A DNA stretch of 64,000 nucleotides from Microbacteriaceae bacterium (GTDB lineage: Bacteria; Actinomycetota; Actinomycetes; Actinomycetales; Microbacteriaceae). Positions 21,723 to 58,536 of the stretch are shown piece by piece (within the stretch, counting starts at the first letter, position 1; every line of letters begins with the position of its first letter). The position numbers and the translations under genes are program-made. The stretch is from positions 372,001 to 436,000 of the forward strand of contig JAODMT010000024.1 of assembly GCA_025464975.1 (NCBI GenBank), written 5' to 3'. The notes below the pieces were generated by a model. The model saw only the letters and a list, made by a program, of their open reading frames with translations. It was not told the DNA's origin and did not search any database.

Positions 21723-21807
21723 CGGAGAATGGGGGATTCGAACCCCCGAGGGCTTTCACCCAACACGCTTTCCAAGCGTGCGCCATAGGCCACTAGGCGA
21801 ATTCTCC
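21723..21807 (-). tRNA. serT: tRNA-Ser (anticodon GGA)
   Basis: The minus strand folds as a class II tRNA of 85 nt. The acceptor is GGAGAAT/ATTCTCC with discriminator G. The anticodon stem CACGC/GCGTG encloses loop TTGGAAA (anticodon GGA). There is a long variable arm and a T-arm GGGGGTTCGAATCCCCC. CCA is not encoded. It decodes UCC and UCU. The symbol is provisional. Confidence 0.96.
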
Positions 21808-21915: not shown

Positions 21916-21921
21916 CATGTC

Positions 21922-22010
21922 GGCTCCTCGCGTGGCGCCATCCAGGCCAACTCCCCCAGGACGGAAACGTAGCAAGGGTAACCGGGCTCTGGCGGGTGCG
22001 CGAGGGGTCT
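21922..22010 (+). ncRNA. ffs: Small bacterial signal recognition particle RNA (4.5S type)
   Basis: This RNA of about 89 nt has the universal SRP domain IV core CAGGACGGAAACGTAGCAAG (with GGTAACC following) inside a long hairpin. The terminal arms 21922-21932 and 21999-22009 pair fully, with two or three G-U pairs. A TTTT run follows at 22010-22013. It binds Ffh and targets membrane proteins co-translationally. The small form without an Alu domain fits actinobacteria. Confidence 0.95.
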
Positions 22011-22052
22011 TTTACATGAGCCGATCAAGGACCGGCGGCCTAGGCTGGCGAT

Positions 22053-53475: not shown

Positions 53476-55464
53476 TCAACTCGCTGGCGGCGTCAACCCG
53501 TCGCTGATCAGCTGCATCACCGACGCGTCCGAGAGGGTGGTCGTGTCCCCGATCGCACGTCCCTCCGCCACATCCTGCAGCAGCCGCCGCATGATCTTTC
53601 CGGAGCGGGTCTTCGGCAGCTCGGCCACCACGACCACGCGCTTGGGCCTCGCGATCGCGCCAATCTCTCCGGCTACATGAGCGCGAAGAAGCGCGCTTGC
53701 CTCCACCGGCGTGTGCTTGTCCGCCTGGTCGGCCCGCAGGATCACGAACGCAACGATGGCCTGGCCGGTCGTCTCATCGGCGGCACCGACGACGGCAGCC
53801 TCGGCAACTATCGGGTGTGACACGAGCGCGGACTCGATTTCCGCCGTCGACAATCGGTGGCCCGACACGTTCATTACGTCGTCCACCCGGCCGAGCAGCC
53901 AGATGTCCTTGTCCTCGTCGAGGCGCGCGCCGTCCCCGGCGAAGTACTTCGGGCCTCCGGGCACGTCCGCGAACTTGCTCCAATAGGTGTCAACGAAACG
54001 TTCCGGGTCGCCCCAGATACCCCGCAACATCGCCGGCCACGGCTCGGTCACGACGAGGAATCCGCCACCGCCAGGCGGCACCGGATGGCCCGCCTCGTCG
54101 AGCACGTCGATGGAGATTCCGGGCAGCGGTACCTGCGCGGACCCCGGCTTCAAAATCGTCACTCCGGGGAGCGCGGCGACCATCATCGCCCCGGTTTCGG
54201 TCTGCCACCAGGTGTCGACAATCGGCGCAGTTCCGGCGCCGATCACGTCGCGGTACCAGATCCAGGCCTCCGGGTTGATCGGTTCGCCCACGCTGCCGAG
54301 GACGCGGATGCTCGACAGGTCGAAGGCATCCGGAATCTCACGTCCGAGCTTCATGAACGAGCGGATGGCGGTGGGAGCCGTGTAGAAGAGGGAGACGCCG
54401 TACTTCTGGATGATCTCCCACCAGCGCCCCGGGTGGGGGGAGTCGGGCGTGCCCTCGTAGATCACCGAGGTCGCCCCGTTGGCCAGCGGACCGTAAATCG
54501 AGTAGCTGTGCCCCGTGATCCAGCCGACATCGGCGGTGCACCAGTAGACGTCCGTCTCGGGATGCAGGTCGAAGACGTTCTTGTGCGTGAAGGCGACCTG
54601 GGTGAGATACCCGCCGCTCGAGTGCAGGATGCCCTTCGGCTTGCCGGTGGTTCCCGAGGTGTAGAGAAGGAACAGAGGATGCTCCGCCTCGAAGGCCACG
54701 GCCTCATGCTCGAAACTCACGCCCTCGAGCTGCTCGTGCCACCACAGGTCGCGTCCGTCAACCCAATCGACGTCATTCTCGCCGCGGCGCAAGACAAGGA
54801 CGTTCCGCACCGAGTGCGGGAAGTCTTTCTCGAGGGCGAGGGCCTCATCCACGACCGGCTTGAGCGCGCTCACCTTGCCCTTGCGCCACCCGCCGTCCGC
54901 GGTGATCACGAGTTTCGCCCCAGCGTCATCGATCCGGGAACGGAGGCTCTCCGCGCTGAACCCACCGAAGACAACGGAATGGATGGCGCCGATGCGGGCA
55001 ACCGCGAGCATGGCCACGGCGGCCTCGGGCACGTTCGGGAGGTAGATGGCGACGGTGTCGCCGGCGACGATGCCGAGACCGGTGAGCAGATTGGCGGCCT
55101 GTTTCACCTCGGCGGTCAGCTCCGCGTAGCTGATCGACCGACTGTCGCCCGGCTCGCCCTCCCAGTGGATGGCGATCCGGTCGCCGTTGCCGTCGAGCAC
55201 GTGGCGATCCAGACAGTTGTATGCCACGTTGAGCTCGCCGTCCGCGAACCACCTGGCGAACGGCGGGTTCGACCAGTCGAGGGTTTGCGTAAAGGGCTTG
55301 TGCCAGTGCAGCAGCTCGCGGGATGTCTTCGCCCAGAAGGCCAGCCGATCGGCCTTGGCCTCCTCGTACAGTCCCGCCGTCGCTATCGCGTTCTGCGAGA
55401 ACGTCTTGGTCGGCGGGAACCGTCGTTCCTCGTGCATCAGGTTGTCTATTGATGGGTTTGACAT
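53476..55464 (-). CDS. acs: Acetyl-CoA synthetase
   Basis: This AMP-forming enzyme of 662 residues activates acetate to acetyl-CoA. It has the adenylation P-loop LLYTSGTTGKPKGILHSSGG (20 residues), VYWCTADVGWITGHSYSIYG, DTWWQTETGAMM, and C-terminal Lys in KTRSGKIMRRLL, the site of acetyl regulation in this family. AAAGGAC precedes ATG 55464. A -10-like TACAAT (plus-strand 55521-55526) lies about 57 nt upstream. With pta-ackA the window holds both the high- and low-affinity acetate routes. Confidence 0.97.
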   Translation of the reverse strand: MSNPSIDNLMHEERRFPPTKTFSQNAIATAGLYEEAKADRLAFWAKTSRELLHWHKPFTQTLDWSNPPFARWFADGELNVAYNCLDRHVLDGNGDRIAIHWEGEPGDSRSISYAELTAEVKQAANLLTGLGIVAGDTVAIYLPNVPEAAVAMLAVARIGAIHSVVFGGFSAESLRSRIDDAGAKLVITADGGWRKGKVSALKPVVDEALALEKDFPHSVRNVLVLRRGENDVDWVDGRDLWWHEQLEGVSFEHEAVAFEAEHPLFLLYTSGTTGKPKGILHSSGGYLTQVAFTHKNVFDLHPETDVYWCTADVGWITGHSYSIYGPLANGATSVIYEGTPDSPHPGRWWEIIQKYGVSLFYTAPTAIRSFMKLGREIPDAFDLSSIRVLGSVGEPINPEAWIWYRDVIGAGTAPIVDTWWQTETGAMMVAALPGVTILKPGSAQVPLPGISIDVLDEAGHPVPPGGGGFLVVTEPWPAMLRGIWGDPERFVDTYWSKFADVPGGPKYFAGDGARLDEDKDIWLLGRVDDVMNVSGHRLSTAEIESALVSHPIVAEAAVVGAADETTGQAIVAFVILRADQADKHTPVEASALLRAHVAGEIGAIARPKRVVVVAELPKTRSGKIMRRLLQDVAEGRAIGDTTTLSDASVMQLISDGLTPPAS

Positions 55465-55592: not shown

Positions 55593-55620
55593 TTGCGCGA
55601 CAGGGTCGCCGGAGTAAACT
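55593..55620 (+). promoter_or_regulatory. Promoter candidate for the 6C small RNA
   Basis: TTGCGC at 55593-55598 and TAAACT at 55615-55620 are spaced 16 nt, predicting a start near 55627. That is just ahead of the first hairpin of the RNA. The same TAAACT -10 is used upstream of the SRP RNA gene. Confidence 0.5.
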
Positions 55621-55626
55621 GGACGC

Positions 55627-55720
55627 GTCGGATGCAAATCCGGTAAGCAACGCATAGTGATTCCCCCCAATCCAGCGTTGCTGTGGCGGCGCCGGTTCCC
55701 CCCAACAGGCGCCGCCCCTC
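55627..55720 (+). ncRNA. 6C small RNA (actinobacterial, B11-like)
   Basis: Two adjacent hairpins each present TTCCCCCCAA in the loop. The first has stem AGCAACGC/GCGTTGCT (55646-55653, 55675-55682). The second has stem GGCGGCGCC/GGCGCCGCC (55685-55693, 55708-55716). Loops with six cytosines in two consecutive stems define the 6C motif of actinobacteria (B11 in mycobacteria), which is known to lie near pilus-assembly and partition genes, as here. The ends are approximate. The rest of the 55465-55843 gap shows only promoter-like hexamers. Confidence 0.88.
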
Positions 55721-55843
55721 TACGTTTAGCGGACTTCAGTTTTGCCAGCCACTACTTCTCCTCCCCAGTCAGCGACCTGCTGGGCAGCACGCCACTAGTC
55801 CGCCGAGGCTCGGCTGGCCGCGGCCCCGCGTTACGGTCGTGCG

Positions 55844-56881
55844 ATGTCGCTCACCGATTCAGCGCGCGAACCGTTCGATGAGGAGCGGTTCGTGCCCCGG
55901 CGTCCCGGAACGTCCGCCCGGCCAGTCGCCTCACCACGAACCGGGCTCCCCGACTTCGGGCCGCTCGCACCCTACGTTGCAGACGCGGCGGTGACGGATG
56001 TCTTCGTAAACGGCGCATCCGAGGTCTGGGTCGATCGCGGCGGCGGAGCCGTTCGTCAACAGGGGGTGCTCTTCGACGCCGGGCAGCTCAGGGAACTCGC
56101 GGTCCGGCTCATCGCCCTCGGCGGTCGGCACATCGACGAGACGAGCCCGTGTGTGGACGTTCGGCTGCACGAGGGAATCCGGGTGCACGCCGTGCTTCCG
56201 CCGATCTCCACCGGAGGAACGCTCCTCTCTATACGGTTGCCGCGCGTCGAGCGACTGAGCCTCACGGATTTGGACGCCCGCGGCTTCTTTTCCACGGGTC
56301 GGCTCGACGTCGTGTCGGCGCTCGTGGCCGAGCGCAAGAACCTGCTCATCACCGGGGCCGGTGGCAGCGGAAAGACGACCCTTCTCGCCGCACTGCTCTC
56401 GAGCGCGGCGATTGGAGACCGCATCATCGCGATCGAAGACGTCGCGGAGCTTCGCGTTTCGCATCCCCACTTCATCGCCCTGGAGGCTCGCCAGGCCAAC
56501 CTGGAGGGGACGGGCCAGCTGGGACTCGAACGGCTCGTTCGTGAGGCGCTGCGGATGCGCCCGGATCGGCTCGTACTCGGCGAATGTCGCGGGGCGGAGA
56601 TCCGCGAGCTGCTTGCCGCGCTAAACACGGGCCACGACGGTGGGGCGGGCACCCTGCATGCCAACTCGCTCGGCGATGTTCCGGCGCGGATCGAGGCTCT
56701 CGGCGCTCTCGCCGGCATGAGCCCGACGGCCATCGCCCGGCAGACGGTGAGCGCTATCGACACTGTGCTGCACCTCGAGCGCAACCGCGATACTCGACGG
56801 CTCGCCCAGATCGGGCGATTCGAACTCGATTCGCGCAATCGGCTGCGGATGGTCGAAGACGTGGTGGACGCCGGTGGCTAG
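55844..56881 (+). CDS. tadA: TadA/CpaF-type secretion ATPase
   Basis: This 345-residue type II/IV secretion ATPase powers Flp-type pilin assembly or a related export machine. It has Walker A GAGGSGKTTLLAALL near residue 170, an Asp box (IIAIEDVAELRV), LVREALRMRPDRLVLGECRG (Walker B-like) and a His box (GTLHANS). It is shorter at the N-terminus than many CpaF proteins. The ATG lies 6 nt after TACGGT (55832-55837), consistent with leaderless initiation. It heads a run of five Tad genes. Confidence 0.93.
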   Translation: MSLTDSAREPFDEERFVPRRPGTSARPVASPRTGLPDFGPLAPYVADAAVTDVFVNGASEVWVDRGGGAVRQQGVLFDAGQLRELAVRLIALGGRHIDETSPCVDVRLHEGIRVHAVLPPISTGGTLLSIRLPRVERLSLTDLDARGFFSTGRLDVVSALVAERKNLLITGAGGSGKTTLLAALLSSAAIGDRIIAIEDVAELRVSHPHFIALEARQANLEGTGQLGLERLVREALRMRPDRLVLGECRGAEIRELLAALNTGHDGGAGTLHANSLGDVPARIEALGALAGMSPTAIARQTVSAIDTVLHLERNRDTRRLAQIGRFELDSRNRLRMVEDVVDAGG

Positions 56882-57809
56882 GAGTTGCCCGGTTGAGGAT
56901 CTCGAACCGCTCGCTTCGCTGGTTCAGCGCCTCGGTGTGCTGCTCGCGGCGGGTGTCGCGCCGGCTTCGGCGTGGCACTATCTTGCCGACGCGGCTACCG
57001 GACCGATGGCCGAGCGCGTTCGTTCGGTCGCCGGGGCGGCGGACGGGGGAGCGGCGGTCGCGGACGCACTGGTTGCGGTCGCGGCATCCGGCGGTCGGAA
57101 CGACCCGGCCTGGCGTGGACTGGCCGCCGCCTGGCTCGTCGCGACCGAGGCGGGGGCGCCGCTCGCTCCCACGCTCGGATCGCTCGCGGCATCCCTTCGC
57201 TCTCTCGCGAAGAACGCCCGCGACCTGACCACCGCCCGCGCGGGACCCGTCGCGACGGCTCGAATGGTGATGGTCCTTCCGGCGGTCGGGATGCTGTTCG
57301 CCCTTGCGCTCGGCTTCGATTCGCTCGGCGCCCTCGTCACGACCGCCCCAGGGCTGGTCTGTCTTGGCAGTGGCCTCGTGCTCATGGTGCTCGCACGCCT
57401 GTGGAACCGGCGACTCGTCACCGCCGCGACACCGACGAACCACACCCCGGGACTTGGCCTCGACCTGATGGCGATTGCAGTTTCCGGAGGGACCTCCCTC
57501 ACGCGCGCCCGGCAGGTGGTGGTTCAGGCGAGGGAGCGCTGCGGTCTTGCGCCTGACGGCACGGATGCGGCAATTGACGACGTGCTCGAACTTTCCAGCC
57601 GGGCCGGGGTCCCCGCCGCGGCACTGCTGCGGAGCGAAGCCATCGAGGCGCGGCGGATCGCCAGGAGCGACGGTGAACGGAAGGCGGCGACGCTCGGTGT
57701 GCTGCTCATGCTTCCGCTTGGGCTGTGCATCCTTCCGGCCTTCATGCTTCTTGCTGTTGCTCCCTTGCTCATCGCGGTCATCTCGTCCACAGTCGGGTCG
57801 CTCGGCTGA
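56874..57809 (+). CDS. Type II secretion F-family protein, TadB/TadC-like fusion
   Basis: The 311-residue inner-membrane platform protein appears to hold two F-type domains: residues about 12-115 (VQRLGVLLAAGVAPASAWHY) followed by two spans (about 122-178), and residues about 185-265 (LDLMAIAVSGGTSLTRARQV) followed by a C-terminal span pair. Most actinobacterial loci encode these halves as separate TadB and TadC. GTG 56874 overlaps the tadA stop by 8 nt. The fusion reading rests on domain repetition and the absence of a second F-family gene. Confidence 0.85.
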   Translation: MARSCPVEDLEPLASLVQRLGVLLAAGVAPASAWHYLADAATGPMAERVRSVAGAADGGAAVADALVAVAASGGRNDPAWRGLAAAWLVATEAGAPLAPTLGSLAASLRSLAKNARDLTTARAGPVATARMVMVLPAVGMLFALALGFDSLGALVTTAPGLVCLGSGLVLMVLARLWNRRLVTAATPTNHTPGLGLDLMAIAVSGGTSLTRARQVVVQARERCGLAPDGTDAAIDDVLELSSRAGVPAAALLRSEAIEARRIARSDGERKAATLGVLLMLPLGLCILPAFMLLAVAPLLIAVISSTVGSLG

Positions 57810-57929: not shown

Positions 57930-58019
57930 GTGAATCGACACAGCACGAATCGACACAGCACGAATCAACACAGCACGAATCAACACGGCGCGAATCGACA
58001 CAGCGTGAATCGATACCGA
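57930..58019 (+). repeat. 15-bp tandem repeat, six units
   Basis: Units like GTGAATCGACACAGC repeat at 57930, 57945, 57960, 57975, 57990 and 58005. A further related copy lies at 57913. Units differ by one to four bases. All are in frame with the pilin gene and carry GTG or ACG/GCG at their first codon, so copy number changes would move or add start codons. Confidence 0.92.
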
Positions 58020-58205
58020 GGGCGGAGCGGTCGGAACGCACAGGGTTGGATCGGCGAGGAGGAAGGCGCCGCCACCGCCGAATACGCCATCGCGACGATG
58101 GCGGCCGTCGGCTTTGCCGGACTCCTCGTGGCCATCCTGCGCAGCGACGAGGTTCGCGGAATGCTCGTCGATCTCGTGCATCGTGCACTCACCTTCGGCG
58201 GGTAG
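57930..58205 (+). CDS. Flp/DUF4244-type pilin with repetitive leader
   Basis: This protein of up to 91 residues has a class III pilin-like core: GEEEGAATAEYAIATMAAVG, then FAGLLVAILRS and a short amphipathic tail. The Glu-Tyr pair after the acidic stretch suits prepilin processing. The N-terminus before it is six NRHST-like pentapeptides encoded by 15-bp tandem repeats. The start could be GTG 57930 or, beyond the repeats, GTG 58005, which leaves a more normal leader. It is the likely structural subunit of the Tad apparatus. Confidence 0.8.
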   Translation: MNRHSTNRHSTNQHSTNQHGANRHSVNRYRGRSGRNAQGWIGEEEGAATAEYAIATMAAVGFAGLLVAILRSDEVRGMLVDLVHRALTFGG

Positions 58206-58536
58206 CGGCCGGCGGGGCGAGGCGGGCAGCGTCACGGCGGAGTTCGCAACCGTTCTGCCGGCGGTAGTGGTCGTGCTCGCGTGTTGCCTCACGGGAATAC
58301 AACTCGCGGCTCAACAGGTGCGCCTGCAGGATGCGGCTGCCGCAGCGGCCCGCAGCGTGGCACGCGGTGACTCCCTCGATGCCGCGGCGGGTCTCGTGCC
58401 GCACTCCATATTGCGCGTCGAGCAACACGGCGACATCGTCTGCGTCACGGCCTCGGCCCCCGGCTCCGCGCTCGTTGGGGTGTTGCGTGGCATTACCGTC
58501 CGCGCCTCCAGTTGCGCTCTCGGTGGTGGGCGGTGA
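58183..58536 (+). CDS. TadE-like pseudopilin
   Basis: This protein of about 117 residues has the TadE signature GSVTAEFATVLPAVVVVLACCL near the N-terminus (first 20 of the segment), a single hydrophobic helix with Glu at the +5-like position. An Ala-rich helix follows (LQDAAAAAARSVARGDSL), and a Cys-containing beta region ends the protein. GTG 58183 is chosen as the in-frame start, overlapping the pilin gene by 23 nt; the exact start is uncertain. It is a likely minor pilin. Confidence 0.8.
   Translation: MHSPSAGSGRRGEAGSVTAEFATVLPAVVVVLACCLTGIQLAAQQVRLQDAAAAAARSVARGDSLDAAAGLVPHSILRVEQHGDIVCVTASAPGSALVGVLRGITVRASSCALGGGR

Follow-up and report, generated by a model that had tools for sequence, protein, structure and literature searches.

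Why should an RNA with loops of cytosine stand at the head of a set of Tad genes, and does it act on the genes that it precedes? This question is raised by one interval of the window, meaning the whole stretch of DNA that was analysed (64,000 nucleotides, from a Microbacteriaceae bacterium). The 6C kind of RNA and its plan of three stem-loops are already known, and why 6C adjoins Tad is an old curiosity that has now become an experimentally answerable question. The features of the interval and its surroundings are as follows.

53476–55464, minus strand: acs, acetyl-CoA synthetase, the divergent upstream neighbour (Pfam; start picked by eye)
55593–55598, plus strand: -35-like TTGCGC, 16 nt ahead of the -10, read in the sequence
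55615–55620, plus strand: TAAACT, the -10 element of the 6C RNA, conserved in relatives
55627–55728, plus strand: predicted 6C RNA of about 100 nt, with predicted ends, matched by R1 (a covariance-type model built in this analysis from 15 sequences) and by RF01066 (Rfam 6C)
55629–55642, plus strand: 5′ mini-hairpin CGGAU-GCAA-AUCCG, beyond the Rfam model, with covariation in relatives
55646–55682, plus strand: hairpin 2, an 8-bp stem with inner GAUU/AAUC and a CCCCCC loop at 55663–55668
55685–55716, plus strand: hairpin 3, terminator-like, a 9-bp stem with inner GUU/AAC and a CCCCCC loop at 55698–55703
55717–55728, plus strand: 3′ tail CCTCTACGTTTA, its U tract interrupted in the source genome
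55832–55837, plus strand: -10-like TACGGT, separated from the tadA ATG by exactly 6 nt, a predicted leaderless promoter
55844–56881, plus strand: tadA, Tad secretion ATPase (Pfam T2SSE 2.7e-45; TIGR03819 400 bits, above the cut-off of 373.15)
56874–57809, plus strand: tadB/tadC-like membrane protein (Pfam T2SSF 2.1e-16)
57930–58205, plus strand: DUF4244 small protein (Pfam 1.5e-20), perhaps pilin-like, to judge by its position
58114–58536, plus strand: TadE-like protein, start uncertain (Pfam TadE 1.4e-5)

Exact copies of TTCCCCCCAA occur only twice in the 64-kb window, at 55661–55670 and 55696–55705 of the plus strand with a spacing of 35 nt; dinucleotide shuffles contain 0.08 copies on average, and two copies in 0 of 100. 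An earlier note on this DNA, made from the sequence alone, had described perfect stems of 8 and 9 bp separated by 2 nt, and both are present, the outer stem of hairpin 2 pairing 55646–55653 with 55675–55682 and that of hairpin 3 pairing 55685–55693 with 55708–55716, with a gap of 2 nt between the hairpins. It had also stated that the repeated motif is exposed in both loops, which is right in that each hairpin holds one of the two exact sites but too broad in extent: because the flanking TT and AA are largely paired (as GAUU/AAUC in hairpin 2 and GUU/AAC in hairpin 3), what is left exposed is the CCCCCC hexamer. When 55625–55725 is folded as this strand, it reaches -43.9 kcal/mol (z -4.40), a stability equalled by 0 of 200 shuffles. 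The mini-hairpin at 55629–55642 falls within the same previously described interval and had gone unmentioned.

The covariance check with the Rfam 6C model, proposed at the same time, gives a match at 55644–55720 that is aligned over the full length of the model (1–75 of 75), with an E value of 0.0036 when 601 bases are searched and of 0.12 when 20 kb are searched. The score of 36.5 bits lies under the Rfam gathering score of 47, for which reason the window RNA is not claimed as a member of RF01066 under Rfam's rule, and an Rfam search of the window at the cut-off gave no 6C call. In 19 family loci tested, RF01066 reached its cut-off once, and among 25 family genomes it produced matches with E ≤0.001 in four, none above the cut-off, all four places being found by R1 as well. 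Homology to accepted 6C members is established through intermediates, since in six genomes (G013, G016, G018, G024, G104 and G128, the last at L107) RF01066 scores 41.2–47.8 bits at the very places that R1 matches, two of them passing the cut-off with 47.5 and 47.8 bits. Moreover, tandem hairpins with loops of about six C, a feature of 6C, are seen in the window and kept in relatives, and the host is an actinomycete. Judged by sequence, the window RNA is a 6C homolog belonging to a Microbacteriaceae branch that the Rfam threshold mostly misses; the earlier recognition of a 6C motif holds by way of the RF01066 alignment, the intermediates and the conserved C6 loops.

This branch is widespread. 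Within the genus, R1 matches 12 of 13 genomes, the sole miss being a 64% complete assembly, and within Microbacteriaceae it matches 93 of 120, 6 of these 93 having supplied training sequences. The remaining 27 family genomes had no R1 match, 22 of them with TadA among the matches listed; a search of 20 of these 22 TadA-bearing loci gave weak matches (E ≤0.013), on the same strand and upstream of tadA, in four. The 6C RNA is thereby extended to most sampled Microbacteriaceae, where the Rfam threshold hides it. The R1 match in the source genome (G000:C3:427626–427727, window 55626–55727) is itself a training sequence, and a second one outside the window (G000:C17:48068–48156; 24.4 bits, E 0.097) may be due to chance. 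Another double-C6 site, in genome G006 (L020), was un-6C-like in appearance and was excluded from the alignment. Elsewhere in the window, a tRNA gene (21723–21807, minus strand) near a small SRP RNA gene (21919–22015, plus strand) is ordinary. Across 196 genomes of the class, RF01066 gave 110 matches in 109 genomes, and the class analyses used 90 of these 110 places, the septum-site gene being located in 87. Among the matches listed in open-licence PMC, as far as those texts were available, the Microbacteriaceae branch of 6C, its conserved promoter and a leaderless tadA were not found, and a term search of Weinberg 2010 found 6C RNA and pilus not named.

The structure is well conserved. In the 93-sequence alignment, 97.1% of cells are paired, and 25 of 28 base pairs have changes on both sides, a count favoured by an alignment that was fitted to the structure; cells with both-side changes number 291, compared with 57.8 in shuffles and at most 45 when partners are slid. 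All five pairs of the 5′ mini-hairpin show both-side changes, with 90.3% of cells paired, in this structure-fitted alignment, and an unfitted alignment of 15 sequences has both-side changes in 10 of 28 pairs, including 3 of 5 in the 5′ hairpin. For the 5′ leader folded alone (mean z -1.95), the minimum free energy is no higher than -2 in 83 of 93 sequences, and the leader beats 95% of its own shuffles (p ≤0.05) in just 43 of 93. The CCCCCC loop is retained by hairpin 2 in 77 and by hairpin 3 in 80 of the 93, and the C6 loops are thus mostly retained while the stems covary.

Elsewhere in the class, beyond Microbacteriaceae, 44 of 89 loci have a 26-nt leader that folds more stably than 95% of its shuffles. 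There, the loop of the 5′ hairpin, lying just 5′ of the RF01066 match, is C-rich in families f33 (11 of 11, for example L358 and L364), f45 (2 of 2, L265 and L271) and f22 (1 of 1, L334), and in none of 75 other class loci or of the 93 Microbacteriaceae. The hairpin at the 3′ side in f33 carries a broken C run, CCCACCC, in 12 of 12 among the matches listed. Because the 5′ loop is C-rich and the 3′ C run is broken, the C loops of 6C in f33 seem, on the sequence, to have shifted position.

The -10 element pointed out earlier upstream of the hairpins, TAAACT at 55615–55620, is conserved, though generic sigma-70 promoter and terminator scans of the window called neither. Of 93 family loci, 89 have TANNNT among the last 16 nt ahead of the model start (8.85 on average in shuffles), most commonly as TACACT (48), and CTCTTGCGC or near forms repeat, by eye, at the -35 place in relatives of the genus. 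At the other end, nt 3–14 beyond hairpin 3 hold at least 5 T in 76 of 93 loci (5.8 on average); the window tail has 5 T there, its U tract being interrupted. TANNNT stands at the expected place in few class loci outside the family, where both promoter and 5′ hairpin are weakly supported. In Microbacteriaceae, the conserved -10 of its own, the small 5′ hairpin and the terminator-like 3′ hairpin suggest a self-contained RNA of about 100 nt, with a predicted promoter and terminator. Its transcription in the window, including both ends, is predicted.

The RNA opens the Tad locus, on the same strand as tadA, where the earlier note had placed it, with 127 nt between the end of the second C-loop stem and the tadA start. 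In the family, tblastn with the window proteins recovers the gene order acs (divergent, 82 of 93), 6C, tadA (90 of 93) and tadB (86 of 93), and TIGR03819 finds TadA downstream of 6C and in the same orientation in 89 of 93; the distance to the match (median 283 nt) is no more than 1 kb in 82 and is 1.2–6.3 kb in 7 of the 89. Three family genomes (L071/L290, L096/L291 and L097/L292) have 3.7–6.3 kb from 6C to the TadA match, so adjacency of 6C and tadA is not required. In the class, acs lies upstream of 6C in only 3 of 90 loci, for which shorter flanks were examined. As these gene orders read, the link of 6C with Tad is wide and that with acs is not. The T2SSF protein at 56874–57809 is a single product of 311 aa in which Pfam reports one domain; mycobacteria have separate TadB and TadC, to go by the gene names in the available part of PMC9531140, and by this comparison the window protein may be a TadB/TadC fusion.

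The septum-site/TadZ gene, said earlier to be missing from this locus, is indeed absent, yet the absence is not specific to the locus: none of the 120 family genomes has a TIGR03815 match above the cut-off, while weaker matches occurred in 120 of 120 and equally in 14 of 14 control genomes. In the class, it is found downstream and on the same strand for 95 of 110 RF01066 matches, 90 of them within 1 kb, which agrees with the earlier statement that a septum-site gene follows the RNA in mycobacteria; the Mycobacterium gene Rv3660c is named tadZ in the text seen of PMC9531140. With 0 of 120 in the family against 95 of 110 class matches, the absence is a family trait, and 6C has stayed beside the Tad genes even where the septum-site gene is lacking. 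One class genome, G189 (L280), has 6C with neither septum-site gene nor TadA at the thresholds used, a possible case of 6C without Tad as far as sequence matches go.

Direct action on tadA, which the earlier note had thought possible, does not fit the anatomy of that gene. Of 85 loci, 64, that of the window among them, have TANNNT 5–8 nt (4–8 searched) before an in-frame ATG or GTG of tadA (shuffles: mean 5.3, maximum 12), at exactly 6 nt in 44 loci and at 7 nt in 17; it was not seen in 21 of 85. Owing to this -10 just ahead of the start codon, the tadA mRNA looks leaderless from its sequence. When one start per locus is considered, an SD-like motif precedes tadA in 1 of 85 loci, with 6.2 expected; a looser test admitting any candidate start gives 13 of 85. 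Runs of at least five G within 25 nt upstream of tadA are present in 1 of 85 (3.2 expected), and in the whole interval between the RNA and tadA they occur less often than chance predicts (23 of 85, 40.75 expected), the controls for G runs and tadA starts being mononucleotide shuffles. As SD-like motifs and G runs are rare there, the C loop has little to bind at tadA; direct 6C action on this gene is not supported and was rejected on the leaderless anatomy and the scarce G runs. Structure, covariation, promoter, terminator, position and the separate tadA promoter are all supported by computation.

In other members of the class, the septum-site gene is built differently, with an SD-like motif in 34 of 86 (10.4 expected, one start per locus) or, by the generous count near any candidate start, in 71 of 87, and with a leaderless -10 at its start, placed by homology, in 0 of 87 (5.4 expected). 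As a class-wide target of 6C, it was rejected: runs of at least five G number 7 in 86, with 7.1 expected. Since neither gene shows an excess of G runs, pairing with the neighbour accounts for the synteny in neither group, and the simplest reason for the link between 6C and Tad, an excess of pairing sites at the next gene, is removed.

With a probability of about 0.8, the Microbacteriaceae 6C is read here as a free-standing small RNA with its own promoter that acts in trans, probably not on tadA. The trans mode is one that we infer by analogy with mycobacterial 6C/B11, and the same mode as in B11 is the best guess because the window RNA has the same anatomy. Pairing of either C loop with a G tract close to the ribosome-binding site of a distant mRNA would block translation of that mRNA or destabilise it. 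A search for such targets through G runs before ATG, in the source genome and in the genus, gave a weak excess and no convincing gene. GGGGGG lies 3–18 nt before ATG 81 times in the source genome, compared with 46 occurrences of the reversed pattern (in a count that overlapping runs enter more than once), and translation of 27 of the 81 sites revealed no convincing gene start, the longer frames continuing upstream of the ATG; in the genus, TTGGGGGG precedes ATG 20 times against 10 reversed, some of these being the antisense of the 6C RNA itself.

Other readings of the locus have been weighed. Since 6C stays despite the loss of the septum-site gene, tadA looks leaderless and target sites are not in excess at the next gene, 6C may be an ancient companion of Tad that influences the locus without base pairing, for instance through transcripts that start at the 6C promoter and run towards tadA; the idea is tentative and, on the whole, unlikely. 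A cis-acting tad leader or attenuator, in which hairpin 3 would terminate conditionally and tadA would be transcribed by readthrough from the 6C promoter, draws on the 89 of 93 copies that precede tadA in the same orientation, the filing of RF01066 under Cis-reg in Rfam, the interrupted U tract of the source genome and the 21 of 85 loci in which no leaderless -10 is seen at tadA. It is made improbable by the separate, leaderless-spaced -10 of tadA in 64 of 85 loci, by the T-rich stretch (at least 5 T in nt 3–14) after hairpin 3 in 76 of 93, by the 7 of 89 cases in which the TadA match is 1.2–6.3 kb away, and by mycobacterial work that, in the portions available, treats B11 as a trans-acting sRNA (PMC10470900, PMC12395582). 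Highly improbable is a control by 6C of the adjoining acs or Tad genes through C-loop pairing in trans: the synteny that invites it is tight (acs in 82 and tadA in 90 of 93), but G runs of at least five within 25 nt are found before tadA in 1 of 85 loci, below the 3.2 expected, and before the class septum-site gene in 7 of 86, against 7.1. A terminator or other DNA or RNA element that makes no regulatory RNA product, its C runs being incidental, is scarcely credible, for although hairpin 3 is terminator-like and transcription of the window 6C is only predicted, a promoter -10 is present in 89 of 93, the C6 loops are mostly kept while the stems covary, and a Corynebacterium homolog is expressed, at about 100 nt by Northern, according to the text seen of PMC4046766.

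The trans-acting small RNA favoured here can be set beside the known members of its kind. It shares with Rfam 6C (RF01066) the adjacent hairpins with six-C loops, the occurrence in Actinomycetes and the position in front of the Tad genes, and differs in that each of its C loops is a short hexaloop closed by AU-rich pairs and that its 5′ hairpin falls beyond the Rfam model. Class 6C is usually followed by the septum-site gene (95 of 110), which is absent beside the window RNA. The available sections of the mycobacterial papers describe B11 of M. marinum, by lead probing, as three stem-loops, two of them C-rich and the last both terminator and seed (PMC12395582), and M. mucogenicum 6C is drawn with three helices and two C-rich loops (PMC6582537). 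The same plan, with the last two of three stem-loops C-rich and the third a terminator, is common to the window RNA, in which the U tract is interrupted and the generic scan gave no terminator; loop 3 of M. marinum B11 has nine C, as against six. In M. abscessus, B11 represses via a six-G tract that either loop can engage, as shown by compensatory mutations (PMC10470900, as far as available). The targets of B11 have been measured, whereas any targets of the window RNA are presumed. The 6C RNA of C. glutamicum (cgb_03605) has runs of eight C instead of six, and in the control genome of this species RF01066 likewise scores below its cut-off. In the part of PMC4046766 consulted, it measures about 100 nt by Northern and extends 27 nt 5′ of the Rfam prediction, a size and a 5′ extension like those predicted for the window RNA.
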